IMG/VR virus record: IMGVR_UViG_3300032516_000117
Span: 1 to 30,640 of that record
From: a virus
Strand: one strand, 5' to 3'
Length of the DNA stretch: 30,640 nucleotides
A program made the translations under genes and the position numbers. Positions within the stretch are counted from its first letter, which is position 1. The number at the start of each line of letters is the position of its first letter. Under the pieces are notes generated by a model. It did not search any database, was not told where the DNA came from, and worked only from the letters and a program-made list of their open reading frames with translations. Shown here in pieces: positions 1 through 16,294 of the stretch.

Positions 1-2
1 TC

Positions 3-251
3 GCAAGTGGACAGAAACTAAAGCAATTGTTAGTGTCGTTGGATACATCGGGTAATGTTGGCATTGATTCAGGATGGGGATCTAGGACATCAGAATTATC
101 ATCTGCCATTACTAAGGCAATTGCACAGGCATCTGGCGGGCACGCACGTTCAGACAAGTTTAACAAATATGCTGCTGAAGCTGCTGCCGGCAATGCTGCA
201 CAATTGCGTCCAATCTTAGATGCATTAAGGGATAATCTCGTCGGACTATAA
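3..251 (+). CDS. C-terminal end of an unknown protein (5' truncated by window)
   Basis: The reading frame is open from base 3 at the window edge to the TAA at 249-251, so this is the 3' end of a longer gene. An internal TTG at 27 is unlikely to be the start because nothing resembling a ribosome binding site precedes it and the frame continues upstream. The visible 82 residues are rich in Ala, Gly and Ser (around AAEAAAGNAAQ) and look helical. I do not recognise the family. Its stop overlaps the start of the next gene by one base, so the two are probably co-translated. Function unknown; a virion protein is possible given its neighbour. Confidence 0.6.
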   Translation, partial: ASGQKLKQLLVSLDTSGNVGIDSGWGSRTSELSSAITKAIAQASGGHARSDKFNKYAAEAAAGNAAQLRPILDALRDNLVGL

Positions 252-1687
252 TGAATTTCATTCAGTATCTTAAAGAGATGTTTCTAACCGAAGCGATTGC
301 CCTGACAAAGGGCAGTCAGCGTGTTCTTGCTGATAAAAAACTTGTTGTGGGACTTGCTGATGCAATGCGCGATGATGCACGTTCACATCCACAGAATTTT
401 CCAGCCAATTCTAGTAGAACTTTCCAGAAAGCACCAGACGAAGAACTTGCTCAATGGTTTCTAGAAAACCTAGATAAAATTGAGAAGGCAGGTTATGAGG
501 GGACAATTTATTCACGTGATGGTGCTTACAGCGAATGGATTGTTCGTCGCTATATTGCAGGAAGTCATAACTGGGAAGATATCACAGGTGTTATGAATAT
601 GAATATGAGAGATTGGACTCTCTTAAAGAATCGTGATATGCTTGATGCAACTCATAAAGATATTCCAAAATTTAATAGTGTGAGAGATTTAGGAAAATAT
701 CTAGCAACACATTATCATGATAAACTAGACCAGATTAGAGACGCCGCCAAGAATGCCGCCGTAAACAAAATTGCCAAGCGTGCGAAAATTGTTGATAATG
801 AGGATTATTCAATTTATACAGTATTCAATTGGGCTGCTGCTAGAGCATTAGGATTAGGAACACAGTGGTGTACGGCTAATTCGACCTATGACGGTAATTA
901 TCAAAATTACTCGTCGAGAGCAATGCTATTTCAAGTCTACCCAAAAGATCCAGAGCATATTGATCGAGATGGCAGAGTATTAGGGAAACGAACCACAGGA
1001 CCCGAAAAATATCAATTTGATGCCGGGACACCATGTTTTCATGATATCGCCGATGACCCTGCAAACAAGGCAGAGATTAAAGAAAAGTTTCCATACATTT
1101 ATTCAGATTTAGTTAAAGGACTCAAACAGCATAGTGCTCAATTAGAAAAATTGATGGTAGAAATGAATGAAGATCCTCACCTTATGAATAGTAAGGAAGG
1201 TAAAACAAAAGTTTATAGTATAGATGATGAGATAAAGAAACTAAAGAAATTAGAAAATATTGGATATTTTACAGATCAGGTTCGTCCAAAGTCAGGCGGA
1301 TCATCGGCCGAAGAACCAGCAGGGGATCAACCACAGGCCCTACCTGCACCACAGCAACCACAAGGAAATCCACAAATGGAAAATGTAGACAAAGATGTAG
1401 CAGCAATGCTCAATTCGTTAAAGAAATATGACATGCTAAAGGAATCGGTTTCTCCTGTTCTCGGCATGGTAACTTTAGGTGAAAAGAAAGGCGACAAGCC
1501 CGATTTCCTAGACTTCGACAAAGACGAAGATAAGAAAGAACCAATGACAAAGGCGCTTAAGGATAAGAAAGAGCAAGAATCCGATTCCGAAGGCGGAGAA
1601 ATTGATGAGTCTAAGGAAGGTGCGGATCAAGAAGTGCTAACCTGGATGAAGCGTTTTGCCAGTCTCGGTAAAATGTCAGGATATTGA
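251..1687 (+). CDS. Conserved phage protein with WCTA motif and capsid-targeting-like N-terminus
   Basis: This 478-aa protein starts with ATG overlapping the previous stop by one base. Its first 15 residues (MNFIQYLKEMFLTEA) resemble the T4 capsid targeting sequence of internal head proteins (T4 IPIII begins MKTYQEFIAEA). They include an LTE|A site that fits the L/I-x-E specificity of the T4 gp21 prohead protease. The middle carries a GTQWCTAN motif near residue 200 that I recall from phage proteins of unknown role. Residues about 345-380 form a Pro/Gln/Ala-rich linker. Near residues 418-440 there is an acidic repeat-like segment, PDFLDFDKDEDKKEPM. Seen: motifs and linker. Inferred: possible packaging into the head. 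The enzymatic function is not recognised. Confidence 0.85.
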   Translation: MNFIQYLKEMFLTEAIALTKGSQRVLADKKLVVGLADAMRDDARSHPQNFPANSSRTFQKAPDEELAQWFLENLDKIEKAGYEGTIYSRDGAYSEWIVRRYIAGSHNWEDITGVMNMNMRDWTLLKNRDMLDATHKDIPKFNSVRDLGKYLATHYHDKLDQIRDAAKNAAVNKIAKRAKIVDNEDYSIYTVFNWAAARALGLGTQWCTANSTYDGNYQNYSSRAMLFQVYPKDPEHIDRDGRVLGKRTTGPEKYQFDAGTPCFHDIADDPANKAEIKEKFPYIYSDLVKGLKQHSAQLEKLMVEMNEDPHLMNSKEGKTKVYSIDDEIKKLKKLENIGYFTDQVRPKSGGSSAEEPAGDQPQALPAPQQPQGNPQMENVDKDVAAMLNSLKKYDMLKESVSPVLGMVTLGEKKGDKPDFLDFDKDEDKKEPMTKALKDKKEQESDSEGGEIDESKEGADQEVLTWMKRFASLGKMSGY

Positions 1688-1710
1688 TATCTTTATTCTT
1701 TAGTGGTTGA

Positions 1711-1739
1711 TTGACTTTTCAGTAAGTAGTTGTTACACT
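1711..1739 (+). promoter_or_regulatory. Sigma70-type early promoter
   Basis: TTGACT (1711-1716) and TACACT (1734-1739) are separated by exactly 17 bases, with an extended -10 TG at 1731-1732. It lies in the gap ahead of the exonuclease gene. Transcription would start near 1746, giving a leader of under 20 bases that still includes the GGAG at 1750-1753. Confidence 0.6.
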
Positions 1740-1762
1740 ATTGCTTACTGGAGAGTTTCACG

Positions 1763-2530
1763 ATGTCACATAAAGAAGATTTCTTACAGAGTTGTTTAGT
1801 TTTAGATACTGAAACCAATTCTGATGATTATAAAATTGCTGAAATTGTAGAATCTGGCTTCGTTATTAGAGAAGACGATGATTGGACAATTTTTCAAGAA
1901 TTACACAAGCCTGTCGATCGTCCTATTCCACCCAAGGTAGAATCAATTTGCTACATCACAAATAGTATGGTTGAAGATAAACCATCCTTTGTCGATTCAA
2001 GCGAAGTATTTCAATCAGTAATAAATGGTTATACTGGTGGTTATCTTGTAGCCCATAATCATTTCTATGATATGCGTGTTTTAGAAAGACACGGTATTGA
2101 TACATCAAAACACAATTGGATTTGTACCTGGAGAATGGCAAAGAAGCTATTCAATGGCGTAGAGGCAATTGAAGAAACAAATCTCCCATATTTACGATTT
2201 GCACTTGAGTTGGATATTCCAATCGAGATGCGTTGCCATCGTGCTGGCAATGATTCCTATATCACCGCGAAGTTGCTTGAGGCACTTGTAAGTTATATGG
2301 AGGAAATGAATCTAATTGATAAGGATCAACCATATGGCCCACAAATTGCAAAATGGGCAGCTGAACCTATTATCTATGAAAGAATGCCTTTTGGAAAACA
2401 TAAAGGCGAACTAATGACTTCAGTTCCTCATTCATATTGGAGTTGGGCTATGAAGAGTACTGATTGGTTCAACGAAGATGCCGACAATCACGATCCGGAT
2501 TTAGCAGCGAGTATCAATGCTGTTCTATAA
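1763..2530 (+). CDS. DnaQ-like 3'-5' exonuclease with ExoX-like C-terminal domain
   Basis: This 255-aa protein has an RNase H-fold DEDDh exonuclease domain. The metal ligands and catalytic His are visible: D15 and E17 (LDTET), D103 (AHNHFYDM), H159 and D164 (CHRAGNDSY). After it, around residues 213-245, comes a small domain with MPFGKHKGE...YWSWA, the pattern of DUF3820, also found at the C-terminus of E. coli exonuclease X. The expected reaction is 3'-5' removal of deoxynucleotides from DNA, for repair, recombination or nucleotide recycling from host DNA. I chose ATG 1763 because GGAG at 1750-1753 sits 9 bases upstream; a TTG at 1730 in the same frame has no such site and lies inside the promoter. 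It heads a short early unit. Confidence 0.88.
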   Translation: MSHKEDFLQSCLVLDTETNSDDYKIAEIVESGFVIREDDDWTIFQELHKPVDRPIPPKVESICYITNSMVEDKPSFVDSSEVFQSVINGYTGGYLVAHNHFYDMRVLERHGIDTSKHNWICTWRMAKKLFNGVEAIEETNLPYLRFALELDIPIEMRCHRAGNDSYITAKLLEALVSYMEEMNLIDKDQPYGPQIAKWAAEPIIYERMPFGKHKGELMTSVPHSYWSWAMKSTDWFNEDADNHDPDLAASINAVL

Positions 2531-2533
2531 TTG

Positions 2534-2773
2534 ATGTACGGAATAATGACCCAGGACGGCCATAGAGTATTATGCCAGCGATCCGGAACTAATGTCTATA
2601 TAATTAAGCGTTGGGACAGGGCAGCAATGCCGGCAATACGCAAATCTGCAATTGAAATTGATCAATTATTGCAGGATATGATGTCATTTGCAAATCGTTA
2701 TGATTTAAGGGTATTTGAATTCACAGAAGATGATCTAGAAAGATTACTAATTAAGAAATTACAAGGTTACTGA
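2534..2773 (+). CDS. Small unknown phage protein, member of shared C-terminal motif family
   Basis: A 79-aa protein begins three bases after the exonuclease stop. The ATG at 2534 is preferred over the TTG at 2531; an ATG at 2546 is an alternative. The C-terminus (RVFEFTEDDLERLLIKKL) weakly matches a motif shared by several small proteins of this window: an aromatic strand, an acidic turn, then an LFKL-like strand. The stop overlaps the end of the convergent minus-strand gene by seven bases. Function is unknown. Confidence 0.7.
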   Translation: MYGIMTQDGHRVLCQRSGTNVYIIKRWDRAAMPAIRKSAIEIDQLLQDMMSFANRYDLRVFEFTEDDLERLLIKKLQGY

Positions 2774-3156
2774 CCGTTGTTATTCCTAGCACCGTCCATA
2801 GTTTGTGCTGCAAGAACACGCTGTGGATCAGGTTTGTATGCTTGTACATTGTGGTTATAAGGTAGATTCGCAGCAGCTAACGCATACTGCAAGCCACGAT
2901 AGCCAGGGGATTGGAGCTTGCCCTGTTTAGGCATATTAGTGTATTCTGCTTGTGGCTTGGTGACTGGCTTGGTGAAGACTGGAACTACTTCTTCACTAAA
3001 CCATTGTTTGAAGTGCTCATCGTAATATTCTTTATTTTGATTTTTGTATTTTACATCTTCAGGATTATAAAATTTGTCCATATCAGCAGACGCCTCTTTA
3101 TAGAAACGAGCAACGACATCGGTAGCACTTTCACCTAAGAATTCTTTAATTTTCAT
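2767..3156 (-). CDS. Small protein with capsid-targeting-like N-terminus; candidate internal head protein
   Basis: This 129-aa minus-strand protein starts at the ATG whose complement is 3154-3156, giving [10 protein letters not shown]. The frame is open further upstream (to 3219), but the upstream residues overlap the ClpP coding start and look non-coding. The N-terminus closely parallels the T4 capsid targeting sequence (MKTYQEFIAEA), with an LGE|S site matching L-x-E prohead protease cleavage. The rest is charged and Tyr-rich, then Pro/Gln/Lys-rich ([11 protein letters not shown]), with no recognised domain. It is one of two minus-strand genes in the window and is divergent from clpP. Packaging into the capsid is inferred from the N-terminus only. 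No Shine-Dalgarno sequence precedes the ATG. Confidence 0.75.
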
Positions 3157-3161: not shown

Positions 3162-3169
3162 TATTTATC
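3162..3169 (-). promoter_or_regulatory. T4-type late promoter octamer (minus strand)
   Basis: On the minus strand bases 3169 to 3162 read GATAAATA, the same octamer that precedes many plus-strand genes here. It ends only five bases before the ATG of the minus-strand gene. By T4 late-promoter geometry transcription would start at the ATG itself, so either the message is leaderless or the match is fortuitous. Confidence 0.4.
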
Positions 3170-3183: not shown

Positions 3184-3780
3184 ATGAGAAACGCATTGGT
3201 TCCAATCGTAGTTGAACAAACCGCCCGTGGTGAGCGTTCATATGATCTATATTCACGCTTGATGAAAGAAAGAGTTATTTTCTTTACAGGTGAAGTTGAA
3301 GAAAATATGTGTGATGTTATCGTGGCACAATTACTCTTCTTGGAAGCTGAAAATCCAGAGCAACCGATAAGTATGTATGTCAAGTCTCCCGGTGGCTCTG
3401 TCTATGATGGATTAGCGGTATATGATGTCATGCAATACATTAAGTGCCCGGTTCATACATATGCTATCGGTTGGGCGGCAAGTATGGGATCGTTTATTGC
3501 CCAAGCTGGCGCACCAGGCCACAGATATTTGCTTCCGCGGACAATGACAATGATACACCAACCCGCATCTGGTACAAGGGGTAAGGTTTCTGATATGGAA
3601 ATTGACCTCAGGGAAAGTCTTCGAATGAAGAAAGAGATGACGGAATTGTATGTTAAGCACAATTCCAAGGGTGTAACATACGATCAGTTTGTAACATTGC
3701 TTGACAGAGATAAATGGCTAACTGCACCTGAAGCTGTTGAGCTTGGGTTGGCAGATCACATTGTGGATAAGAGAATATGA
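3184..3780 (+). CDS. clpP: ATP-dependent Clp protease proteolytic subunit ClpP
   Basis: This 198-aa serine peptidase would form the double-heptamer chamber that degrades proteins fed by a Clp ATPase in the cytoplasm. The catalytic triad is intact: S100 in [10 protein letters not shown]125 in MIHQPASG, and D176 in [11 protein letters not shown]. Similarity to bacterial ClpP runs the full length (ALVP near the start, [19 protein letters not shown]). Unlike E. coli ClpP it has no propeptide: only MRN precedes ALVP, the E. coli mature N-terminus. The start is supported by AAAGGA about nine bases upstream. Its stop overlaps the start of the Fe-S carrier gene (ATGA). A matching ClpA with a ClpP-docking IGF loop is encoded at 19666-21891. 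ClpP is known in some phages, often as a prohead protease relative, but this one is of the housekeeping type. Confidence 0.96.
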
Positions 3781-4097
3781 TTACAATTACAGAAAAAGCA
3801 AAAGAAAAAATTATATCAGTCCTCACCGAAGAAAAAGCAACAATGATTCGCTTTGGATTGCAAGGCGGCGGCTGCAACGGATTTACTTATTTCTTTGCAG
3901 TTGAAGAAAAACAGGAAGACGATGATTTTGAGTTTCCTCTTAGCGAGTCGCATAAGATGGTAGTAGATGCGGCGAGTAGTATGTATTTAGAGGAAGCGAC
4001 GATTGATTACAAGAAAGATATGATGGGTGAGAGTTTTATATTCAACAACCCGTCGCAGAAAACAAGTTGCGGATGTGGTAATTCTGTAGGTTTTTAA
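3777..4097 (+). CDS. A-type iron-sulfur carrier (IscA/ErpA/HesB-like)
   Basis: This 106-aa protein matches the full length of A-type Fe-S carriers, which bind iron or an Fe-S cluster and pass it to apoproteins. The three cluster-ligating cysteines are present: C33 in GGGCNGF, and C98 and C100 in the terminal [10 protein letters not shown]. This is the C-x64-C-x-C spacing of the family. The start overlaps the clpP stop as ATGA, so it is translationally coupled to clpP. HesB-like genes are known from cyanophages and other T4-like phages, where the target apoprotein is generally unknown. No Fe-S enzyme is obvious in this window. ErpA versus IscA cannot be decided from the sequence. Confidence 0.92.
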
Positions 4098-4103
4098 TAA
4101 ATA
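4096..4103 (+). promoter_or_regulatory. T4-type late promoter octamer
   Basis: AATAAATA overlaps the stop of the Fe-S carrier gene and lies 23 bases before the hydrolase ATG. It fits the NATAAATA octamer repeated ahead of other genes in this window (T4 consensus TATAAATA). It would give the hydrolase its own late transcript. Confidence 0.6.
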
Positions 4104-4126
4104 CATATATTATAGAAAGGTAGTAC

Positions 4127-4858
4127 ATGGCAAGTCCATCAAAGATGCTATTAGGATTAGAGGCAGCAAGATGCATATATGAATATGGTCTTGGCTGGCT
4201 TTTAAACTCACCTCTACAATTTATTGCACCACCGGGAGATGGGCATCCAGTTTTGGTTATTCCTGGTCTCGGTGGATCTGATGGTTCCACTCAATATATT
4301 AGGAATTTTATTGATGGAATCGGTTACCATTCACATACGTGGGGCTTAGGACGAAACTTAGGTCCACGCCAGGGAATGGAGAAATTACTCAAAGACCTAA
4401 CTGATCGTGTTGCTGAGATATCAGAAGCATCTAATGGCGCACAGATTAGCCTAATAGGGTGGAGTTTAGGCGGTATCTATAGCAGGGAAATAGCTAAGTT
4501 GTGCCCCGATCTTATAAGACAAGTCATTACACTTGGTTCGCCATTTAAATCTGTAGATGATGGAACCAATGCTGCTCGTGTATATGAAATCTTGAGTAAG
4601 GATAAGACTTATAAGAATCCTACCATAGTAAAGCAGATTAGTGAGCCGCCACCGGTTCCGTTCACATCTCTATATAGTAAAACAGATGGTGTGGTACACT
4701 GGAAATGTTCCATTGAGGATGAAAACGATCAATCTGAAAATATCGAAGTTCCTGGCGCAAGCCATATGGGTATAGGTCATAATCCTATTGCGATGTATGT
4801 TATTGCTGATAGATTAAAGCAGACAAGGTCGAATTGGACACCATATAGATCAAAATAA
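4127..4858 (+). CDS. Alpha/beta hydrolase (esterase/lipase-like), bacterial-type cargo gene
   Basis: This 243-aa protein has an alpha/beta hydrolase fold with the nucleophile elbow GWSLGG (S113), an Asp in SKTDGVVHW (D187) and a His in GASHMGIGHNP (H213 or H218). The oxyanion region PVLVIPGLGGSDGST is near residues 42-56. The pattern WGLGRNLGP, GWSLGG, TLGSPF, YSKTDG and GHNP is one I associate with a chromosomal esterase/lipase-like family in proteobacteria. The substrate is unknown; an ester or acyl group of lipid, envelope or a small molecule is possible. No signal peptide is seen, so action is cytoplasmic unless released at lysis. It sits alone between a late octamer (4096) and a terminator (4873), the arrangement expected of an acquired moron. 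Confidence 0.88.
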   Translation: MASPSKMLLGLEAARCIYEYGLGWLLNSPLQFIAPPGDGHPVLVIPGLGGSDGSTQYIRNFIDGIGYHSHTWGLGRNLGPRQGMEKLLKDLTDRVAEISEASNGAQISLIGWSLGGIYSREIAKLCPDLIRQVITLGSPFKSVDDGTNAARVYEILSKDKTYKNPTIVKQISEPPPVPFTSLYSKTDGVVHWKCSIEDENDQSENIEVPGASHMGIGHNPIAMYVIADRLKQTRSNWTPYRSK

Positions 4859-4872
4859 TAATCAAATATAAC

Positions 4873-4895
4873 AAAAGGGCCTTAGGGCCCTTTTT
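4873..4895 (+). terminator. Rho-independent terminator after hydrolase gene
   Basis: A 9-bp stem (AAAAGGGCC / GGCCCTTTT) with a TTAG loop is followed by a run of T to 4895. The stem is nearly symmetric and closely resembles the terminator at 16295. Confidence 0.85.
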
Positions 4896-4903
4896 GCATG
4901 ATC

Positions 4904-4932
4904 TTGACATAATACATAAATTATGTTACAAT
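4904..4932 (+). promoter_or_regulatory. Strong sigma70 early promoter with extended -10
   Basis: TTGACA (4904-4909), a 17-base spacer and TACAAT (4927-4932) with TG at 4924-4925 give a near-consensus host promoter. It lies just after a terminator and 27 bases ahead of the 4959 gene, so it starts a new early transcript. Confidence 0.8.
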
Positions 4933-4958
4933 GTATTATATTAGCAATATAGGATAAG

Positions 4959-5189
4959 ATGGATAAGAATACATACGTACCGATGAATGAATTGATTCGC
5001 GATAAGGATACATCATGGACATTTACACATATAAATCTTCCTTATCACGAAATTGCTAGTAGGGGAATTGTTATTTGGTGTGTACAGAACCTCGAAGGGC
5101 GCTGGACTATGCTAGGTGGCAATAAATTTGGCTTTGAGGACGCGCCTGATGCCACAATGTTTAGAATACAGTTTGGGTTAGGTGCATAA
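4959..5189 (+). CDS. Small unknown early protein with shared C-terminal motif
   Basis: This 76-aa protein is first behind the 4904 promoter. The ATG at 4959 follows AGGA at 4951-4954. Its middle contains HEIASRGIVIWC and the C-terminus reads FGFEDAPDATMFRIQF. That is one of the clearer copies of the motif (aromatic-x-F, acidic turn, D-A, hydrophobic-F-K/R) shared by several tiny proteins here. No catalytic motif, membrane segment or signal peptide is visible. Its position suggests early expression and a role in host takeover, which is only inferred. Confidence 0.75.
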   Translation: MDKNTYVPMNELIRDKDTSWTFTHINLPYHEIASRGIVIWCVQNLEGRWTMLGGNKFGFEDAPDATMFRIQFGLGA

Positions 5190-5192
5190 ATA
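5185..5192 (+). promoter_or_regulatory. T4-type late promoter octamer
   Basis: CATAAATA overlaps the stop of the 4959 gene and ends 26 bases before the next ATG at 5219, the same geometry as the other octamers. Confidence 0.55.
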
Positions 5193-5218
5193 GTTTTGAC
5201 TACAATCGAGGTGATACT

Positions 5219-5416
5219 ATGTACGGAGTTCAAGAATTAAAGCAACGTCTAATCATTATCAAACATTCGGATCTTGATGATGCAACTATCCTCGACGAAA
5301 ATTATCTCCAGCTTATTAAGGAAACACCAAATCCTGACGAGAAGGAACAATTTATAGTCTTACGATCTATTGTCCACCGCAGGATTAAACATTTAATAAG
5401 CGATAACGGAAAATAA
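5219..5416 (+). CDS. Small unknown phage protein
   Basis: This 65-aa charged, helical protein has its ATG preceded by GAGGTG at 5208-5213. I recognise no family. It follows a late octamer and is three bases from the next gene, so the two are probably one unit. Confidence 0.7.
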   Translation: MYGVQELKQRLIIIKHSDLDDATILDENYLQLIKETPNPDEKEQFIVLRSIVHRRIKHLISDNGK

Positions 5417-5419
5417 TTA

Positions 5420-6580
5420 ATGCTCAATATTGCAAAACAGATTTACTCAGGATGGAATACAACAAGTACAAAACACGAATTACCAGAAGCAGAAGTTATT
5501 CCTTTTGGAAATTCATCCAATGAGAAAAAGAGATTAGAAAATATAACAAAGAAGTACACGGTACTTAAAGAACATAATAATATTCCTCTACCGGGATTTA
5601 CATTACATAAGACAGATAGAAAAAACTGGGGATCTTTAGATCAGGCCTGGCTTGTTATCGACCCGCGTGGATATCTAGTCAGAATCAGTAATGATAATTT
5701 AGAAAATATTCTTCATGTTACCGGAGTCACAGAAGGACTGATCCAGGAGAAATGTGTTTGGGCTAGAGAAGATAGTCAAACTAAGATGGTTTTAGTTCCT
5801 GTTAGTTCCCCGACATATCTCGAAGCTTCACAGAATACAGAACTCATTGAGGGTAAGGTTAATCTTAAGGATGTACAGATTGGTGATACGGTCCTACTTC
5901 AAAATGAATTAGTTGGAACATATATGGGTGTCTTATCTCTCTATGCCCCATTTGATTCTTTAGGATACGTATACAAACCGCAGGTATTTCTGCGTAGGCA
6001 AATTATTAGGATTGAAGATGCCAAATATCATTACCAGACAGATCTGAAGATCCTAAAGGTATTGAAGAAAACAGATAATCCACTCACACGAGAGGAATCT
6101 ATGGCATATCTAAACAAGGATATTGCCGGTGGAGCTTCGTATTTTACTAATATCCCCAGTATGCCTAGTTCGGGTTATTATTCATCGCGTGGAATGATCA
6201 AACTAGCATCGATTCACGCAGTTCCGAAAGTACATTTTACCTTAGATGAAATTACTCTTCCCGAAGCAACAGATTTATTTCACACTGCCTTAGCAATTTG
6301 CGATTCGGGTATGTTGATTCTTGAGAATACTCATGGTCGAAAAGTAATGATCGATTTTCCTTATAGTTTTTCAAGTTTTTCAGGAAGAACGCCAACAACA
6401 ATTAATTCCTTTGAAATTGATCATATTGAAGAACTTGTTGATGAGCCGTATGATAGGCTTACACAAATAAAAGATCCAAGTAAATCTTCTTACGGTAAAA
6501 CCAGAACACGGTATTCACTTGACAAATTTGTGAAATTCTATAAAATAGTCAAACATGTAAAACAAGACACTTATGTCTGA
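5420..6580 (+). CDS. Conserved hypothetical phage protein (386 aa)
   Basis: The protein begins MLNIAKQIYSGWNTT and continues with long conserved-looking stretches, such as LPGFTLHKTDRKNWGS near residues 58-73, IDPRGYLVRISNDNLE near 80-95 and IGDTVLLQNELVGTYMGVLS near 155-175. I recall similar hypothetical proteins in T4-like phages but no assigned function. No transmembrane segment, P-loop or nuclease motif is visible; the composition suggests a mixed beta-rich globular protein. It follows the 5219 gene closely and precedes the MazG-like gene by 14 bases, with AAGGA ahead of the latter, so the three may share a transcript. A virion role is possible but not shown. Confidence 0.85.
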   Translation: MLNIAKQIYSGWNTTSTKHELPEAEVIPFGNSSNEKKRLENITKKYTVLKEHNNIPLPGFTLHKTDRKNWGSLDQAWLVIDPRGYLVRISNDNLENILHVTGVTEGLIQEKCVWAREDSQTKMVLVPVSSPTYLEASQNTELIEGKVNLKDVQIGDTVLLQNELVGTYMGVLSLYAPFDSLGYVYKPQVFLRRQIIRIEDAKYHYQTDLKILKVLKKTDNPLTREESMAYLNKDIAGGASYFTNIPSMPSSGYYSSRGMIKLASIHAVPKVHFTLDEITLPEATDLFHTALAICDSGMLILENTHGRKVMIDFPYSFSSFSGRTPTTINSFEIDHIEELVDEPYDRLTQIKDPSKSSYGKTRTRYSLDKFVKFYKIVKHVKQDTYV

Positions 6581-6594
6581 CTATAAAGGAATTC

Positions 6595-7002
6595 ATGGAC
6601 AAAACTATTCTAAACAACTATGCCACATTCGTTGATGGCGTTACCAGCCCAGTAAGTAAAAACACAGACCTCTTTATCGAGCGAATCAAATTTCTACAAT
6701 CACAGGGGTGTGATGTAGCACGTTTAACAACTGCCGGCGTCGGCTTAGCAAGCGAAGGCGGCGAGTTCGACGAAATCGTTAAGAAGATTCTCTTTCACGG
6801 TAAGGAATATAACGAAGATAATATTTTCCATATGAAACGCGAACTAGGCGATATCATTTGGTATTGGATGAATGCTTGTATCGCACTGGGATTTGATCCT
6901 AATCAAGTCATTGAAGAAAATGTCAATAAGCTTGAGGCACGTTATCCGGGTGGAAAATTCTCTGTTTGGCATTCTGAAAACAGGGTAGAAAACGATATCT
7001 GA
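6595..7002 (+). CDS. MazG-like nucleotide pyrophosphohydrolase
   Basis: This 135-aa all-alpha NTP pyrophosphatase-like protein would hydrolyse nucleoside triphosphates to monophosphate and pyrophosphate. The metal-binding pattern is visible: E54 and E57 (ASEGGEFDE) and E83 and D86 (RELGDIIWYW), the E-x2-E...E-x2-D signature of the family. The C-terminus (LEARYPGGKFSVWHSENR) is typical of phage MazG-like proteins. The length fits a single-domain member rather than the two-domain cellular MazG. The natural substrate may be dNTPs or alarmones and cannot be settled here. It is close to dCMP deaminase in the same run of genes, consistent with nucleotide-pool remodelling during infection. Confidence 0.88.
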   Translation: MDKTILNNYATFVDGVTSPVSKNTDLFIERIKFLQSQGCDVARLTTAGVGLASEGGEFDEIVKKILFHGKEYNEDNIFHMKRELGDIIWYWMNACIALGFDPNQVIEENVNKLEARYPGGKFSVWHSENRVENDI

Positions 7003-7003
7003 T

Positions 7004-7240
7004 ATGTCCTTAACTTGGGTACTTAATAGACCATCAACTCCACAAATAGGAGATTGTTGGTATGATAGTTACAGAGAGCAGACTTATATGTGGCAAGGTA
7101 CAACCTGGATGCCTTTAATGGTGAATCCAATGCCTGTGCCACCATTTATACCACCTACGGAAGAACAGCTAGAAAAACATCCGGCATTAAAACAATCATG
7201 GGAAGAATTCTTAGTTGTTAGAAGATTATTGGGTATATGA
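7004..7240 (+). CDS. Small conserved phage protein (PALKQSWEEF motif)
   Basis: This 78-aa protein starts one base after the MazG-like stop. Its N-terminal half is Trp-rich (GDCWYDSYREQTYMWQG), a pattern seen in phage virion proteins that mention a coat of water-exposed loops. A Pro-rich linker follows and the helix HPALKQSWEEFLVVRRLLG ends it, a pattern I recall from small T4-like phage proteins. The function is unknown. Its end overlaps the next gene (ATGA). Confidence 0.78.
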   Translation: MSLTWVLNRPSTPQIGDCWYDSYREQTYMWQGTTWMPLMVNPMPVPPFIPPTEEQLEKHPALKQSWEEFLVVRRLLGI

Positions 7241-7476
7241 CTAAACCAATCTATAAATTTAACTGGCCAAAGAATCGCTGTGAGATAATATTAGCTGATC
7301 TCTCGCCGGAAGAAGTTAATTCAATGGTTGACTATTGCGACGAACTTAATATAGAATTAGAATCTTTTGGTCAGCTTGATGTTAGTGATGTATCTGGATA
7401 TGATACTTTAGCAATATTTAAATTTAAGAATGAAGAAGACGCGTTAATATTCAAATTAAGGTTCAAATGCAAGTAA
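7237..7476 (+). CDS. Tiny unknown protein, shared C-terminal motif family
   Basis: This 79-aa protein is coupled to the upstream gene by an ATGA overlap. It ends in AIFKFKNEEDALIFKLRFK, one of the clearest copies of the shared motif. The N-terminal part begins YKFNWPKNRCEIILADLS. It is followed by two more members (7467 and 7721), forming a head-to-tail trio that looks like duplicated and diverged genes. Function unknown. Confidence 0.78.
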   Translation: MTKPIYKFNWPKNRCEIILADLSPEEVNSMVDYCDELNIELESFGQLDVSDVSGYDTLAIFKFKNEEDALIFKLRFKCK

Positions 7477-7724
7477 ATGTTCGCCACTGGCGATATGAAG
7501 ATGGCTGGCATAATATTCTTCACACAGAAACTAAAGAATTTAGAGAAGATATGGTAGGTTGGCATTGCTGGGCTTATGCAGATTCTGATTTTGAAAAATG
7601 GATGGAACAAAATATGAAGGGCCAGTATGATTGTACATGGCGATTCAACAGCGGCGATCCAATGTATACCATCCACATATATGATGGCGAAGACGCAACA
7701 CTTTTTAAATTGACTTGGATGTGA
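7467..7724 (+). CDS. Tiny unknown Trp-rich protein, shared C-terminal motif family
   Basis: This 85-aa protein overlaps its upstream neighbour by ten bases. It is rich in Trp and His (GWHCWAYADSDFEKWMEQ) and ends IHIYDGEDATLFKLTWM, the family motif. It is the middle member of three adjacent paralogue-like genes. Function unknown. Confidence 0.78.
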   Translation: MQVNVRHWRYEDGWHNILHTETKEFREDMVGWHCWAYADSDFEKWMEQNMKGQYDCTWRFNSGDPMYTIHIYDGEDATLFKLTWM

Positions 7725-7936
7725 GAGTTCTTAAAAAAGAAATTTGGCCACACCGAATTATTATTAAAACATTAGACGAGAGTATTCAGGATACCTGGTG
7801 CAATAAAATGCTTGGTAGAAAATTTGATGATTGGTATGGATATAATATAGACAATGATAAACGAGTATATGCTTTCAAGGATGAGGCAACTTTACTTGTT
7901 TTTAAATTAACATGGGGACAATATGGAATTAGGTAG
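7721..7936 (+). CDS. Tiny unknown protein, shared C-terminal motif family (GTG start)
   Basis: I chose GTG 7721, which makes a GTGA overlap with the previous stop; an in-frame TTG at 7715 is the alternative. The 71-aa product begins VRVLKKEIWPHRIIIKTLDE and ends with YAFKDEATLLVFKLTWGQ, matching the trio motif. Aromatic residues (DDWYGYN) lie in the middle. Function unknown. Confidence 0.75.
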   Translation: MRVLKKEIWPHRIIIKTLDESIQDTWCNKMLGRKFDDWYGYNIDNDKRVYAFKDEATLLVFKLTWGQYGIR

Positions 7937-8231
7937 ATATATAAAGAAGATGGTAAAGACCGTAGTTAAATGGTCTGTAAGCGAGGATAAGAGATATTAT
8001 ACTGAAGATTCATGTGCGCAATCACCGGTAACAAAAGGTTCAAGTATCGGTGATAGATCAAATGGTATGAATTTTACCGTGCATGCTGCTACAGGTGGCA
8101 AGGTAATTCAGGTTAGCGTATATGATCCTCGAACCGATCGGCATAATACCAGTCTGTATGTAATTACAGATAAAGAGGATCTCGGCGAAGAACTTGCTCA
8201 AATTATTACAAAAGAAAGTTTATCTAGATAA
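7923..8231 (+). CDS. Conserved hypothetical phage protein
   Basis: The 102-aa frame starts at ATG 7923 and overlaps the previous gene by 14 bases. ATG 7950 (MVKTVVKWSVSEDKRYY) is a credible alternative start, because the conserved-looking part begins there. The C-terminus reads YVITDKEDLGEELAQIITKE. I recall similar hypothetical proteins in large phages but no function. Its TAA overlaps the dCMP deaminase ATG by one base. Confidence 0.78.
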   Translation: MELGRYIKKMVKTVVKWSVSEDKRYYTEDSCAQSPVTKGSSIGDRSNGMNFTVHAATGGKVIQVSVYDPRTDRHNTSLYVITDKEDLGEELAQIITKESLSR

Positions 8232-8686
8232 TGGAAAATACTCTAAAATGGGATCTTAGATTTCTAGATCTGGCAAAGCTAGTTTCCACTTGGTCCAAAG
8301 ATCCAAGCACCAAAACCGGTGCTGTAATTGTGTCACCTGATCGCCGCGTTGTTTCGGTCGGATTCAATGGTTTTCCAAAAAACATGTTAGACTTACCGGA
8401 AAACTATTCCAACCGCGAAGAAAAATATAGTCGAATAGTTCATTGCGAGATGAATGCACTTTTGTTTGCAAAAGAAAGTACCGCCGGATGTACACTGTAC
8501 ACCTGGCCGTTAATATCGTGTGATAGATGCTTTGTACATATGGCTCAAGCCGGATTAACAAGATTTGTTGCACCAAAACCATCTTTGGAAATTCTTACCA
8601 GATGGGGAGACGCACTGGACCGTGTGCGTAAATATATAAAAGAGACTGGGTTAGAACTAGTGGAATTAGATATAGAGTTAACATAG
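8231..8686 (+). CDS. dCMP deaminase
   Basis: This 151-aa zinc-dependent deaminase converts dCMP to dUMP, the precursor for dTMP synthesis. The zinc site is visible: H71 and E73 in HCEMNAL (E73 as proton shuttle), and C97 and C100 in SCDRC. The N-terminal SKDPSTKTGAVIVSPD and GFNGFPKNM are typical of deoxycytidylate deaminases. The usual P-C-x2-C motif is written as PLISCDRC, with the Pro further from the first Cys. It starts on the TAATG overlap with its neighbour and lies in the same gene run as the MazG-like protein. Length and motifs match phage dCMP deaminases. A relaxed deoxycytidine-type activity is not excluded. Confidence 0.92.
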   Translation: MENTLKWDLRFLDLAKLVSTWSKDPSTKTGAVIVSPDRRVVSVGFNGFPKNMLDLPENYSNREEKYSRIVHCEMNALLFAKESTAGCTLYTWPLISCDRCFVHMAQAGLTRFVAPKPSLEILTRWGDALDRVRKYIKETGLELVELDIELT

Positions 8687-8691
8687 CCGTC

Positions 8692-8865
8692 GTGGAATTA
8701 GATGATAACGAGATGGACAGGATCCTAACGCCTTCAGAAGAGGAGCAGACCATTCTAATATTGGCAGGGAAATGTCCACACAATAAGGGGTGGCGATATT
8801 CGGGGCATGGGCATAATGACGATGCATATGAATGTAAGCTTTGTAAAGAAATCAAGTGGTGGTAA
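8692..8865 (+). CDS. 57-aa putative zinc-knuckle protein
   Basis: A short frame from GTG 8692 to TAA 8863-8865 encodes 57 residues. The C-terminal half has C28-P-H30 (KCPHNKGW) and C48-K-L-C51 (YECKLCKE), with H39 and H41 between. That is a plausible C-x-H...C-x2-C zinc knuckle. The N-terminal half is acidic (SEEEQT). Coding is supported by this motif and by its tight fit between dCMP deaminase and the next promoter. ATG 8713 is an alternative start. The function is unknown; nucleic-acid or protein binding would be usual for such a knuckle. Confidence 0.6.
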   Translation: MELDDNEMDRILTPSEEEQTILILAGKCPHNKGWRYSGHGHNDDAYECKLCKEIKWW

Positions 8866-8871
8866 ATCCAG

Positions 8872-8900
8872 TTGACAACAATCTTAGTCTAGTATAAAAT
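8872..8900 (+). promoter_or_regulatory. Sigma70 early promoter
   Basis: TTGACA (8872-8877), a 17-base spacer and TAAAAT (8895-8900). It lies in the gap before the 8937 gene and would give a leader of about 30 bases. Confidence 0.75.
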
Positions 8901-8936
8901 ATAAGCTCAACAACCCAACTTTACAGAAAGTGTAAT

Positions 8937-9206
8937 ATGAACAAGCAAACTACCCCTAAGGCCACTCCGGTGAACCTGAAAGAGCAGAACGCGGCTCATA
9001 CCTTCCGTGTTACGATTCGTGATCGCGAACATTTCTACAAGCTTGTCAATTGGCTCAATGCCAACGTCGGCAAGGGCGAAGATAAGTGGACAATGGAAGG
9101 CCGTGTACTGAAGACACTGAAGGGCGGCAAATCGGTTAGCCCAAAGATCTATATTTTCAAACAGGATTTTGATCCGGCGTCTTCGCTGTACCTTAGCCTT
9201 CTGTAA
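8937..9206 (+). CDS. Unknown early protein with its own strong promoter
   Basis: This 89-aa protein is first behind the 8872 promoter. It contains HTFRVTIRDREHFYKLVNWL and VGKGEDKWTMEGRVLK, and ends IYIFKQDFDPASSLYLSLL, loosely like the shared C-terminal motif. The codons are noticeably richer in G and C than those of its neighbours (for example gcg, ggc, cgt), suggesting high expression or a different origin. No enzymatic motif is seen. Its stop overlaps the next ATG by one base. Confidence 0.8.
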   Translation: MNKQTTPKATPVNLKEQNAAHTFRVTIRDREHFYKLVNWLNANVGKGEDKWTMEGRVLKTLKGGKSVSPKIYIFKQDFDPASSLYLSLL

Positions 9207-9475
9207 TGTCATCTTTCCACGGTCATTCGGTTGTGACCGTGGATGATGACATTGTCCTCTTTAAGTTTATTGAATCCATTAATGTCAGAGATGCTGAGGA
9301 TATGGTGGTAGATAAACTTAAAGGGGATGTCACTCTCTCAATAAGAACCATATCCGGAAAAGAACACATTGTATCAATGAATAGAATGTGGAATGTAATT
9401 GGTGGAGGAACAATTCGTGGACAAGAATTGGCTTCTAGCATATGCGAAAAATGGCTATGGATTAATAAACCGTAA
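9206..9475 (+). CDS. Small unknown phage protein
   Basis: This 89-aa protein starts on a TAATG overlap with the 8937 gene. It contains DDDIVLFKFIESINVRDAED early and a Trp-containing C-terminus (CEKWLWINKP). No family is recognised. It belongs to the early transcript from 8872. Confidence 0.75.
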   Translation: MSSFHGHSVVTVDDDIVLFKFIESINVRDAEDMVVDKLKGDVTLSIRTISGKEHIVSMNRMWNVIGGGTIRGQELASSICEKWLWINKP

Positions 9476-9486
9476 TGGAGATATAA

Positions 9487-9729
9487 ATGAAACAGCAAGG
9501 AAGATGCATTGTTGGTGATCTACGTGTGGTAGATAGTTATACCTCTGATTGGATGTCTATTAAGATGCATCCTGCTACTTTTTATCGTCGCCAGGCTGAC
9601 ATTCTTCCTACCTTAGAAAAAATTAAGGGCCTATATGCTGAACTCGACATGGGTCAGTATATTCTTCTGCGATTTTCTGAGAAGGATGATGTCACTGCCT
9701 TTCATAAGCGCCATCACGAATACATATGA
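9487..9729 (+). CDS. Small unknown protein, weak member of the shared-motif family
   Basis: This 80-aa protein is preceded by TGGAGAT at 9476-9482. It ends YILLRFSEKDDVTAFHKRHH, a weaker version of the shared C-terminal motif. The stop is in an ATGA overlap with the next gene. Function unknown. Confidence 0.75.
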   Translation: MKQQGRCIVGDLRVVDSYTSDWMSIKMHPATFYRRQADILPTLEKIKGLYAELDMGQYILLRFSEKDDVTAFHKRHHEYI

Positions 9730-10160
9730 GCGTTAAGAAACTTCATTCGCGAACTAAAATATTCTTTCCTAAACCATATGTGGTTAGGTTGGATTATTCT
9801 AATATTGTAGCGGATGAGGCAATGACCGATTATAGGAAACTCACAAGACAAGCCTATAAGTTGCTTAAGGGGACCTGGGGTTATTGTCAACTTGAATATG
9901 AACAAGTGAAAATAAAGGATGAATTTAAGCATCCTGCTCCTCCGGGACCTAATCATTTTGCTGTAATGATTCCTCCGGGTATTGGCGTTTCTTCATTTGA
10001 TTCCGATTATCAGCGTGTCGCGCGCGGATATATCTGTTTCGCTGATGAATTGGATGCATTACAATTCAGACTCTCTATTTCTGCAAATGCTATTCAGGTA
10101 TTGATGTGGCCTGAAAGATGGTTCACTATCCACGAGATAGTAGAAGCGGATGAGTCTTAG
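9726..10160 (+). CDS. Unknown phage protein with internal shared motif
   Basis: This 144-aa protein is coupled to the previous gene by ATGA. A Pro-rich stretch (HPAPPGPNHF) is near the middle. The shared motif, YICFADELDALQFRLS, is internal here and followed by about 25 more residues (LMWPERWFTIHEIVE). It is the longest member of the family and ends the early run. Confidence 0.78.
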   Translation: MSVKKLHSRTKIFFPKPYVVRLDYSNIVADEAMTDYRKLTRQAYKLLKGTWGYCQLEYEQVKIKDEFKHPAPPGPNHFAVMIPPGIGVSSFDSDYQRVARGYICFADELDALQFRLSISANAIQVLMWPERWFTIHEIVEADES

Positions 10161-10197
10161 ATCTGTGTCATCTTTTGTAAGACTGGTCTGAACCTGC

Positions 10198-10205
10198 CAT
10201 AAATA
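10198..10205 (+). promoter_or_regulatory. T4-type late promoter octamer
   Basis: CATAAATA lies in the gap after 10160, 22 bases before the ATG at 10227, with AGAGGA between as ribosome binding site. Confidence 0.6.
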
Positions 10206-10226
10206 CAGATAATAAGAGGACACCGT

Positions 10227-10475
10227 ATGCACCCGTTTTTAGATGTTGCCAAACTAACCGACGAAGAGATTATCGAAAGGTTGGGGAGAGCCTACACCTT
10301 TATGAACATGCAGAAAACACTTGGACATTCACCGGCGGTTCTTAGCATTAGAGAAGTTATTCAACATCTTGAGGACGAAAGAGCCAAAAGAATGCAGAAG
10401 ATGATGGATGATGAATATTCAAGAAAGTTTCCAGAAGCTAATAAACCGATTGAATTAGGTAAGATCGAGGACTAA
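10227..10475 (+). CDS. Small unknown helical phage protein
   Basis: This 82-aa charged protein is predicted to be mostly helical (REVIQHLEDERAKRMQKMMD). The start is supported by AGAGGA at 10215-10220. It is first behind a late octamer and five bases ahead of the next gene. I do not recognise the family. Confidence 0.75.
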   Translation: MHPFLDVAKLTDEEIIERLGRAYTFMNMQKTLGHSPAVLSIREVIQHLEDERAKRMQKMMDDEYSRKFPEANKPIELGKIED

Positions 10476-10480
10476 TAACT

Positions 10481-11197
10481 ATGATGAAACGAGGGAAAAG
10501 CATCATCAGAAATTATATGACCCTGAGTTATGAATTTGCTGGAACAAGAATACAAGAAGGATTTCTTACTCCTGTTGATTGGGAACTATCTGTCAACTTA
10601 ATTGTTTCGGGTAAGAAGTCTAAATCAAAAGAAGATATTGAATATAGAGCAAGTGTTATATATCAGAAATTATATTTTTGGTTAGATACTAATTTATCTT
10701 ATATAACAATGGTGGATGTGGGTAACGAAGATGATTTATACCTTGCGAATCTATCATCCAATATTATGTTATATTGTCCTGGAAATCCCAGTGATGATTT
10801 AATTATAAGATTGATACATTCAAAACTCTCTGCATTATCCGGCTCGGATATGGAGATCGGCGAAATTAAATTAAAGGCAAGTGATACATCATTGCAGTAC
10901 ACTTATGATTGTCCCGAACACGAATATGAATTGCCAGCAACCACAACAGAATACTACACAGAAGGTACCTGCAGGGATATAGAACCTTGGTGGACAAGAA
11001 ATGATGGATTCTGTTTTGAATTTGTTCGCCCAGAAGAATCAGAAGCTACAGACGAAGAAATTTTTGCAGGAATTACTGATCCAATGGATGAATTTGAAAG
11101 AGTAGTTTCTGAAATGGATGATACACATATCGGTATGGTAAGAGAACCAGCAAGAATTGTTCAGGTGGAAAAGTGGAAGCCACGGAAGGTCGAATGA
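10481..11197 (+). CDS. Conserved hypothetical phage protein (238 aa)
   Basis: This 238-aa protein may start at ATG 10481 or the adjacent ATG 10484; GAGG at 10467-10470 fits either. It contains LYFWLDTNLSYITMVDVGNE near residues 65-84 and a conserved-looking TTTEYYTEGTCRDIEPWW near 154-171, with an acidic C-terminal third. No catalytic motif is evident. The end overlaps the DnaE-like gene (ATGA). It appears to be a replication-region neighbour, but its role is unknown. Confidence 0.8.
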   Translation: MMKRGKSIIRNYMTLSYEFAGTRIQEGFLTPVDWELSVNLIVSGKKSKSKEDIEYRASVIYQKLYFWLDTNLSYITMVDVGNEDDLYLANLSSNIMLYCPGNPSDDLIIRLIHSKLSALSGSDMEIGEIKLKASDTSLQYTYDCPEHEYELPATTTEYYTEGTCRDIEPWWTRNDGFCFEFVRPEESEATDEEIFAGITDPMDEFERVVSEMDDTHIGMVREPARIVQVEKWKPRKVE

Positions 11198-11709
11198 AAA
11201 CAAATATGTACGGTCAAGCCATACTTTCCAGTAATGAATTGAGAGAATTATTACTGCAAGGAAAGAGCATAAGTCACTTGAATGTTATATTTGATGAGGA
11301 AATAAACCTCTTTAAAGAACACCAGGCCGAACTACTGCAAGAAACAATTACATTTTTAGATGCACCAGAGGAACTTTTAACGTTTGACGAGTTTCACCAA
11401 AAATGTGCCGATGAATGGATTTTCCCAGAAATTTATCAGCAAATAGATGTAAAGAAATGGCTATTCGATAAATGTAAAACAAATGCCGAAGTAGACAGAG
11501 TAGAATTAGAATATGAACTCTATGAAGAGCGTGATTTAATTATGTTACTTCGATTGTTTATATTTCTTGTTGATTACATGAGGAAGAATAAATTTATTTG
11601 GGGTGTAGGAAGAGGTTCAAGTGTTTCATCGTACATTCTGTATTTGATAGGTGTTCATAGAGTAGATTCGCTGAAATATGGATTCGATATCAAAGACTAT
11701 TTAAAATGA
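11194..11709 (+). CDS. Standalone DnaE-like module (C-family polymerase motif)
   Basis: I chose ATG 11194, which forms an ATGA overlap with the previous stop and has GGAAGG at 11183-11188; the frame is open to an earlier ATG at 11173. The 171-aa product ends with WGVGRGSSVSSYILYLIG and continues VDSLKYGFDIKDYLK. This matches the start of the palm of bacterial replicative polymerase DnaE (GPGRGSAAGSLV...DPLKYDLLFERFL). The rest of a polymerase, including the catalytic aspartates that lie further on, is absent. It cannot by itself be a complete polymerase. Similar short proteins are annotated as DNA polymerase III alpha in some phages. It may bind nucleotides or the host replisome; this is inference. 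A homing endonuclease gene follows directly. Confidence 0.75.
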   Translation: MKTNMYGQAILSSNELRELLLQGKSISHLNVIFDEEINLFKEHQAELLQETITFLDAPEELLTFDEFHQKCADEWIFPEIYQQIDVKKWLFDKCKTNAEVDRVELEYELYEERDLIMLLRLFIFLVDYMRKNKFIWGVGRGSSVSSYILYLIGVHRVDSLKYGFDIKDYLK

Positions 11710-12383
11710 AGGAATTTAAACCCACCTGGTTATATATTAAACAACATAATATAACCGGATTGAAATATTTTGGTAAGACAATTTCTGATCCAATTAAGTA
11801 TAGAGGATCTGGTATAGTTTGGACGAGGCATCTTAATAAACACGGAGATGATGTATCTACATTATGGACACAATTTTTTGAAGATAAAGAAGCTATAACA
11901 GAATATGCAGTAAATTTTTCTAAGGAAAATAACATAGTAGAATCTAAAGAATGGGCTAATCTTAAAATAGAAGACGGACATATGGGCGGTTATTACGGAG
12001 AGGTTACAGCCGAGACAAGGAAAAAGCTAAGTGATAAGAGTAAACAGCACAAACATTCAGAAGAATCTAAGGAGAAAATATCTGCTAAATTAAAAGGGAG
12101 AACGTTTTCAGAAGAATGGATAGAAAAATTAAAAGTATCCAGCAAAGGTAGAAAACACACAGAAGAATCAAAGCTAAAGATGTCTGAATCTAAGAAGGGA
12201 TTTAAGCATACTGAAGAAACTAAATTAAAAATTAGTAAAATGGTTAAGGGTAAGAATATAGGTAGCGATAATCCATTCTTTGGTAAAACACATACACCGG
12301 AAGTAATGGAAAAAATTAAAGCAACAAAGAAACTAAAATTAGAAAAATTAGGAGAAAATCATGTCACGCCACGTTACATATAG
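11706..12383 (+). CDS. GIY-YIG-like homing endonuclease with NUMOD3 repeats
   Basis: This 225-aa protein has an N-terminal GIY-YIG-like nuclease segment (TWLYIKQHNITGLKYFGKT, where LYI and YFGKT stand for the GIY and YIG strands, then KYRGSGIVWTRHL). From about residue 100 it has five or six Lys-rich NUMOD3-type DNA-binding repeats (HSEESKEKISAKLKG, HTEESKLKMSESKKG, HTEETKLKISK). This domain order is typical of free-standing phage homing endonucleases of the Seg kind. It cuts a DNA target to promote its own spread. The start is coupled to the DnaE-like stop by ATGA. Its last 23 bases run into the next gene in another frame, suggesting insertion just upstream of that gene. A and T content is high compared with neighbours. 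Confidence 0.85.
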   Translation: MKEFKPTWLYIKQHNITGLKYFGKTISDPIKYRGSGIVWTRHLNKHGDDVSTLWTQFFEDKEAITEYAVNFSKENNIVESKEWANLKIEDGHMGGYYGEVTAETRKKLSDKSKQHKHSEESKEKISAKLKGRTFSEEWIEKLKVSSKGRKHTEESKLKMSESKKGFKHTEETKLKISKMVKGKNIGSDNPFFGKTHTPEVMEKIKATKKLKLEKLGENHVTPRYI

Positions 12384-12699
12384 AGGCACGACATTGGATA
12401 TGGATTCCATTCGTCGTGAAAATGAGAAAGTTCCAGCAATTGGAAATATGAAAGTAAATGCCAAGGGTGATCAAATTAAGGATGGCCGCGTAACCAAGAC
12501 TGCTGATCAGATTGCTCGCGAAAATCACAGAGTTCAATCTACCATAGTAAATACTGGCCTGAAGGGCCCTGTTCCCGCAGCACCTGCAACGGTATTAGAG
12601 GCACCAAAGGCATCCAGAGTTGCAAAGACAACAAAGGCAATGAAAGAAGTAGAGTTGCCCAGTGGCGACATTGTTATGAAAGAAGACGATGAAAATTAA
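12361..12699 (+). CDS. Conserved hypothetical phage protein (112 aa)
   Basis: The ATG at 12361 is preceded by GGAGA at 12351-12355, which lies inside the end of the homing endonuclease. The 112-aa product begins MSRHVTYRGTTLDMDSIRRE and contains GNMKVNAKGDQIKDGR and ARENHRVQSTIVNTGLKGP, which I recall as a conserved pattern in T4-like phages. The C-terminal third is Ala/Pro/Lys-rich and then acidic. No function is known to me. Its end overlaps the GroES-like gene by 11 bases. Confidence 0.82.
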   Translation: MSRHVTYRGTTLDMDSIRRENEKVPAIGNMKVNAKGDQIKDGRVTKTADQIARENHRVQSTIVNTGLKGPVPAAPATVLEAPKASRVAKTTKAMKEVELPSGDIVMKEDDEN

Positions 12700-13042
12700 A
12701 GCACTCAAAGGTAAAGTCCTTGTTACCGACCTGGAACGAGGATCGCGTGTAGTCAATGGAATTATTATTCCGAGCGATGATGGTAAGAGTGAGGGTATAC
12801 GCCCACGCTGGTGTAAAGTATATTCTGTTGGAGAAGACATCACAGATATTACACCCGGACAATGGATTCTTGTTGAACATCTACGATGGACTCGTATGAT
12901 TAAGATCAGACAGGAGGACGGTACATATCTTCAATTATTTGGAGTAGAATGGCCACAGGCATGTATGCTTGTTTCTGACGATGATCCAGAGACAGCAATT
13001 TTCTCCGTATTTTCACAGGCAAACGAACGCGCTCAGACTTGA
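12689..13042 (+). CDS. GroES-like co-chaperonin (Cpn10 fold), putative
   Basis: This 117-aa protein follows the GroES plan: an opening beta strand (MKIKALKGKVLVTDLE), a mobile-loop-like segment ending VNGIIIP, a CKVYSVG strand corresponding to GEVLAVG, then G-x-WILVEH where GroES has GD-x-VIF. Length is close to GroES (97 aa) and T4 gp31 (111 aa). Phage members of this fold replace host GroES so that GroEL can fold the major capsid protein. The hydrophobic IIIP tripeptide in the loop would be the GroEL contact. Similarity is by pattern only, so the call is moderate. It overlaps the previous gene by 11 bases, and its stop lies within the next promoter. Confidence 0.7.
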   Translation: MKIKALKGKVLVTDLERGSRVVNGIIIPSDDGKSEGIRPRWCKVYSVGEDITDITPGQWILVEHLRWTRMIKIRQEDGTYLQLFGVEWPQACMLVSDDDPETAIFSVFSQANERAQT

Positions 13043-13067
13043 CATTTCTATTGTTCATAGTTATACT
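13039..13067 (+). promoter_or_regulatory. Sigma70 early promoter for clamp loader unit
   Basis: TTGACA (13039-13044), a 17-base spacer and TATACT (13062-13067). The -35 overlaps the stop of the GroES-like gene. Transcription would start about 19 bases before the GTG at 13093. Confidence 0.75.
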
Positions 13068-13092
13068 TGTTACAAATTAGAAAGGTCAGTCT

Positions 13093-14031: not shown

Positions 14032-14293
14032 TCAGATTATATATTCTCGATTTGAGTATTTTATAGGAGATACACCATCCCACGAAATATTTAACGAATA
14101 TGATAATATGTTCAATAACATACTTGAGAACGGTGTTCAGGTTAGTGGGGCACAGGCAGCTATTAATATGGATTTAAGAACTGCCATAGTCCTAACATAT
14201 TCGGAAGAAGCAGATAACTTTTTGCGTCTAAAATTCTGTAATAGAAAAGATGTAAAATTTCATGATTGTAGACCAAAAAAGGAAAAAGAATGA
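14015..14293 (+). CDS. Small unknown protein, shared C-terminal motif family (TTG start)
   Basis: The best start is TTG 14015, 17 bases inside the clamp loader gene; the first in-frame ATG lies well within conserved-looking sequence. The 92-aa product includes RFEYFIGDTPSHEIFNEYD and ends AIVLTYSEEADNFLRLKFCN, matching the shared motif. It lies away from the main cluster of this family. Function unknown. Its end overlaps the next gene (ATGA). Confidence 0.68.
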   Translation: MQKKHNQIIYSRFEYFIGDTPSHEIFNEYDNMFNNILENGVQVSGAQAAINMDLRTAIVLTYSEEADNFLRLKFCNRKDVKFHDCRPKKEKE

Positions 14294-15712: not shown

Positions 15713-15733
15713 GTATTAGAATTCCTAATCTTT

Positions 15734-16286: not shown

Positions 16287-16294
16287 GAACATTA

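Follow-up and report, generated by a model that had tools for sequence, protein, structure and literature searches.

The question raised by the stretch of DNA analysed here (the window; all 30,640 nt of IMG/VR record IMGVR_UViG_3300032516_000117) is whether two of its proteins carry short cleavable tags that load them into a phage head. The source is an uncultured giant T4-like bacteriophage, and the window is syntenic with 179–196 kb of the Pseudomonas jumbo phage PA5oct. The proteins are of 478 amino acids (aa; 251–1687, + strand) and 129 aa (2767–3156, − strand). In T4, gp21 removes the propeptides of 10–20 residues by which Alt, gp24 and the internal proteins enter the prohead (PMC5694885, PMC3012670); the propeptide of gp23 has 65 residues (PMC5694885). 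The initial annotation likened both N-termini to the T4 capsid targeting sequence (CTS), read an L-x-E cleavage site in each and proposed internal head proteins delivered with the DNA. The evidence makes it fairly probable that both are internal head proteins, expressed late, targeted to the prohead and cut by gp21. Each would be directed into the prohead core by a short N-terminal helix that ends in L-x-E, and a gp21-type protease would there cut each one after its Glu (E14 of the 478-aa protein, E9 of the 129-aa protein and possibly E398 in the linker of the former). The propeptide would then depart, and the mature protein would remain with the DNA, probably to be ejected with it at infection.

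Both open reading frames (ORFs) and their starts stand as first annotated. The ATG of the 478-aa gene shares bases with the stop codon of the preceding gene (T-A-ATG, 249–253). A longer in-frame TTG start is present for the 129-aa gene; the ATG at 3156 is preferred because a late promoter falls inside the TTG extension and the homologue alignment begins at the Met of the ATG. From the alignment of N-termini, the propeptide of the 129-aa protein is predicted to be MKIKEFLGE (3130–3156, −), with the cut after E9. Homologues of this protein are found at 16 loci with 65–100 % identity and at about 40 loci by profile, those of Pseudomonas jumbo phages being about 35 % identical. In 32 of 32 distinct sequences the Glu of an [LI]-x-E step is residue 9 or 10; the middle position takes N, L, T, G or K, and the Glu is followed by S, G, D or E. 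Even where one residue has been inserted into the N-terminus (L015 and L168), the L-x-E step is whole. The family pattern, M[KR]IK[DE][ILVF]LxE, is that of a short T4-like CTS.

Conservation likewise marks a targeting or propeptide segment in the 478-aa protein, predicted to be MNFIQYLKEMFLTE (251–292, +) with the cut after E14 and before an Ala. Among residues 1–15 of 13 aligned sequences only M1, L12 and E14 are invariant, and a near-invariant ALTKGSQRV block directly follows the tag. Just before the ALTKGSQ block, each of the 23 distinct N-termini shows [LI]-x-E, mostly with another such step upstream. The claimed resemblance of both proteins to the T4 CTS is thereby confirmed beyond chance, conservation being a stronger test of the tag than chance matching. 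The motif is short and the first comparison was made by eye, which leaves room for a fortuitous likeness or wrong start codons; however, the tag of the 129-aa protein is kept across 34 records, some of them from Pseudomonas phages with 35 % identity, and the starts are fixed by the stop–start overlap and constant promoter spacing, so that this explanation is very improbable. A further conserved L-x-E/S step (L396, E398 and S399 invariant in the 478-aa alignment) is located in the linker at 1436–1447 (+), and cutting after E398 would be a possible second event, freeing the C-terminal module. Neither the 129-aa nor the 478-aa protein matches a named family above cut-off in Pfam, PHROGs or NCBIfam; NUMOD1 was considered for the latter and rejected (Pfam score 12.1 bits against a cut-off of 22.8).

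Similar tags are found on distant relatives of the 478-aa protein. A profile search with its family returned 38 distant loci (L101–L138), with similarity confined to the domain around the motif GTQWCTA (residues 78–307; 482–1171, +), over which the distant homologues are 18–27 % identical in a 41-sequence alignment. Their N-termini (for example MRAFQFLTEAG, MKASEFLIEYN and MRYYEFIVEYK) are M[KR]xxEF[LI]xE-like, and the strict tag is present in 13 of 24 of these homologues vs 28 of 294 other genes of the same loci (p=3.8e-7). No Pfam match was obtained for members of the 478-aa family or their distant homologues, and a PDB sequence search gave nothing (best E 0.13). The full-length AlphaFold model was poor and was set aside (predicted local distance difference test, pLDDT, 51). 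The domain alone, modelled from the 41-sequence alignment, reached a mean pLDDT of 84.7; it had no match among PDB structures at E<0.3, and its matches among viral structures include a 482-aa PA5oct structural protein (E 1.4e-6). A PcfJ-like identity for the domain was rejected, as fold matches reached only E 0.1–0.2 with no Pfam match. In the contig IMGVR_UViG_3300042691_032331 (L101:1633–8764) there is a run of seven MRAxEFLxE-tagged genes, otherwise apparently unrelated, which includes an SLT transglycosylase (PF01464, E 1.9e-23) and the GTQWCTA domain; in contigs similar to L101 the neighbours include GNAT-like and possibly, on weak similarity, Tpt1/KptA-like proteins.

Both window genes look late-expressed, judging from their promoters. 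The T4 late promoter TATAAATA occupies −13 to −6 relative to the transcript start (PMC1524935). A T4-type late promoter, GATAAATA, is located at 3162–3169 (−), exactly −13 to −6 of the 129-aa ATG, and this position is kept in 32 of 34 records, PA5oct and Paride among them (−30/−29 in the other two). The transcript should therefore begin at the AUG, and a leaderless late mRNA is predicted. The 478-aa gene has no GATAAATA within 2.5 kb, because it is the second gene of an operon, behind a first gene of 3.1 kb. The 3′ end of this first gene, tagged MSEIRKWLKIME/S, occupies 1–251 (+); the gene encodes 1046 aa in a near-identical contig (L018:6861–10001), and in all 28 loci with a readable start (19 contigs) it has GATAAATA at −33 to −35 relative to its ATG. 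The 1046-aa protein starts with MSDIRKWLKIME/S and is thus probably the third protein here to carry a tag. In PA5oct, whose depositors flagged 93 proteins as detected by mass spectrometry (MS), NATAAATA precedes 23 of the 93 MS-flagged genes vs 14 of 347 unflagged ones (p=1.4e-8). When five relatives are pooled, a late promoter is found at 19 of 64 tagged genes vs 285 of 2384 (p=1.6e-4). The spacing from late promoter to ATG is bimodal genome-wide in G005, G007 and G004 (about −12 to −14 and about −24 to −40); the genes with the short spacing, among them the 129-aa gene, further tagged genes (MKLREILLEHM) and homing endonucleases, form a class of late genes that seem to lack a leader.

The initial annotation named the lack of a gp21-like protease from the full genome as refuting its reading; the full-length relatives pass this test, PF03420 (Peptidase_S77) being found in PA5oct, Paride and relatives of 385, 363 and 369 kb. 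PF07068 (gp23) is present in the relatives of 363 and 369 kb, and their gp23 genes have a nearly identical counterpart in the ORF at that position in the 385-kb relative; the Peptidase_S77 and Gp23 families or syntenic counterparts are thus in G005 (the 385-kb relative), G011, G012 and PA5oct. The head module of the relatives runs portal, small tagged protein (MKAKDLLVEF), acidic protein, protease, scaffold (MAKKIDEILSES) and capsid protein, which equals T4 genes 20-67-68-21-22-23. The capsid proteins have a conserved YLAE/SATAG step (FLVE/NASAG in PA5oct) at about residue 42. This step is the counterpart of FLTE/A at residues 62–66 of T4 gp23 and, from its sequence, is presumably cut.

The same module shows that tags of this kind also mark assembly proteins. 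T4 gp24 and gp67 carry one, so the tag alone does not mean injection, and the two window proteins may instead be core or shell proteins that need the tag and are not injected, like T4 gp67 and gp68 (degraded in the prohead) or gp24 (a vertex protein with a 10-residue propeptide). The relatives' gp22 scaffold and gp67-position protein bear the tag, and the T4 sequence closest to MKIKDILxES is that of gp24, MAKINELLRES, which is not an internal protein. Assembly may use up the 129-aa protein in particular; this would explain why its PA5oct orthologue, EST35_0271, was not detected in virions, and the scaffold EST35_0153 is likewise without an MS flag. Set against this, neither gene is within the head-morphogenesis cluster, and the 478-aa family is long and multi-domain with a highly variable linker and has a homologue that persists in the PA5oct virion. 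Its GTQWCTA domain also appears dispensable, since in G005 a shorter protein retains only the C-terminal module. (That gene, L008:12554–14410 (−) or G005 28807–30633, encodes a single 608-aa protein in which the start of the 1046-aa protein is fused to the C-terminal module of the 478-aa protein.) A purely assembly-related role is accordingly rather unlikely, though it deserves more weight than any other alternative.

The virion annotation of PA5oct bears on head location and separates the two families. EST35_0205, the homologue of the domain of the 478-aa protein (tblastn E 3e-17 from L101, a profile match and a fold match at E 1.4e-6), begins with MKLFEVFTLYED and bears the annotation ‘structural protein, ESI-MS/MS’. 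The proposed head location is therefore supported in the 478-aa family, whereas the 129-aa family lacks direct support for it because EST35_0271 is unflagged. Other MS-flagged PA5oct proteins have a similar start, namely 0150 (MKINDIITEG; at the gp67 position, beside the portal gene), 0238 (MKIKDILVES), 0380 (MRLNEINLIET) and 0381 (MKILEFNLTEK). A T4-derived tag pattern is found in 5 of 93 MS-flagged vs 3 of 347 unflagged genes (p=0.012), EST35_0271 being one of the three; this enrichment is modest, and the pattern was refined during the analysis. When whole proteomes were scanned for the same N-terminus, as the initial annotation had suggested, the strict K/R-start tag was in clear excess in PA5oct (6 of 440 called N-termini vs 0.3 in shuffles) and less so in three other relatives (1–2 per genome vs 0.1–0.4). 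At 260677–262300 (−) of PA5oct (MK797984) three consecutive genes start MRLNEINLIET, MKILEFNLTEK and MKLSEICILES, and two are MS-flagged.

Several observations weigh against assigning both proteins to the head interior. The window itself (30.6 kb) contains no protease gene. The tag of the 478-aa protein is looser than the T4 CTS, beginning MNFIQYL without K/R at position 2; by sequence it is atypical and unconvincing without its relatives. EST35_0271 is unflagged despite a deep list of 93 proteins that includes enzymes, and the flags themselves come from the depositors' annotation and not from a re-analysis of the spectra. A looser tag definition carried over from the relatives shows no MS-flag enrichment in PA5oct (7/15 vs 63/140, p=0.56), nor does any [LI]xE at residues 7–16 (p=0.46). 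A control tag pattern also leans to late promoters in the five pooled relatives (17/87, p=0.035). That [LI]xE alone is common and unenriched, together with the missing K/R at position 2, could suit amphipathic helices that bind membranes or partners in late non-cargo proteins, with L-x-E incidental. Yet L and E are fixed while x is free, even through an indel, in the same genomes the capsid and scaffold proteins have this step too, and MS-flagged relatives carry the tag; incidental L-x-E steps are thus quite unlikely.

The tag and cleavage-site reading of the initial annotation is supported by conservation, by late promoters, by tags that unrelated proteins share, and by the gp21 and gp23 genes of full-length relatives. 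Both the 129-aa and the 478-aa proteins would be cleaved and, in this phage, would be located in the virion; injection into the host is suggested by analogy with T4, and the GTQWCTA domain may then have an effector role.

The surrounding gene order is common to the window and PA5oct: DnaQ-like exonuclease, 129-aa gene, ClpP, MazG, clamp loader, PhoH, virion protein, DnaJ, ClpA and fibre genes. No near match to the first 12 kb of the window was found among phage records. The 129-aa gene is located between the DnaQ-like exonuclease gene (1766–2530, +) and the ClpP gene (3184–3780, +), opposite in strand to both, as in PA5oct. GATAAATA occurs six times in the window vs 2.6 expected. Besides the 129-aa site, four occurrences precede genes, of which one is a virion structural gene and two belong to the tail-fibre region: 15734–15741 (+), 31 bases before the ORF of a small possible membrane protein at 15765; 17260–17267 (+), 26 bases before the virion structural gene at 17286 (phrog_12928); 21957–21964 (+), 33 bases before a repeat-rich probable fibre gene at 21990; and 25291–25298 (+), 29 bases before a gene at 25320 whose syntenic PA5oct counterpart is MS-flagged. 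The last, at 29720–29727 (+), is downstream of 27672–29705 and probably serves the next + strand fibre gene, a putative target that runs off the window. A proteostasis set of ClpP, ClpA-type ATPase, DnaJ and Cpn10-like genes is spread over 3184–21891, and possible Hsp20-like and ClpS-like genes, recognized by eye, are just upstream in the near-identical contig (L018 694–1474). Adjoining the DnaJ and ClpA genes is a gene for translation initiation factor IF-1 (71 aa; 18612–18827, +; PF01176, E 8.8e-19), which is unusual in a phage. An IscA-like Fe-S gene is located at 3777–4097.

Few phages have known sets of injected proteins. If the tag is read correctly, the injected proteins of uncultured jumbo phages could be listed from sequence alone, and the GTQWCTA domain, present in many phage contigs, matching a PA5oct virion protein and without a solved relative, would gain its first functional context as virion cargo. 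A wider proposal, that giant and environmental T4-like phages use one short cuttable tag to load many unrelated effectors into the head, in places whole operons (L101), with GTQWCTA a widespread injected effector domain, is tentative and somewhat short of an even chance. Nothing was found in the literature on these two families; the CTS is discussed for T4, SPN3US and P1, subscription papers being mostly outside the search.

Among known systems, T4 IPI, IPII, IPIII and Alt are alike in having an N-terminal segment of 10–20 residues of the M-K-x-x-x-E-F-I-x-E-A type (IPII and IPIII start MKTYQEFIAEA), a predicted gp21-type cut, a variable mature part and late expression. They differ in that no similarity extends past the tag, that the 478-aa protein exceeds them in size, has an unrelated domain and starts its tag with MNFIQYL, and that packaging and injection are assigned here by analogy. 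T4 gp61.1 (AF158101 18966–19130; 54 aa, hypothetical) also has a CTS-like start, MKTFKEFIKED. The gp24 propeptide (MAKINELLRE/S) is the nearest T4 sequence to the N-terminus of the 129-aa protein, whereas gp24, a vertex protein of the shell with the gp23 fold, and the 129-aa protein show no relation past the tag. PA5oct supplies homologues of the domain of the 478-aa protein and of the 129-aa protein in EST35_0205 and EST35_0271, respectively, but at low identity, with 0205 elsewhere in its genome and without the C-terminal module, and with 0271 not MS-flagged. The ejection proteins of phiKZ-like phages and SPN3US (PMC5694885) likewise place N-terminal propeptides on inner head proteins of giant phages; their propeptides are mostly >100 residues and cut at A/S-x-E, whereas those of the window are short and T4-like.

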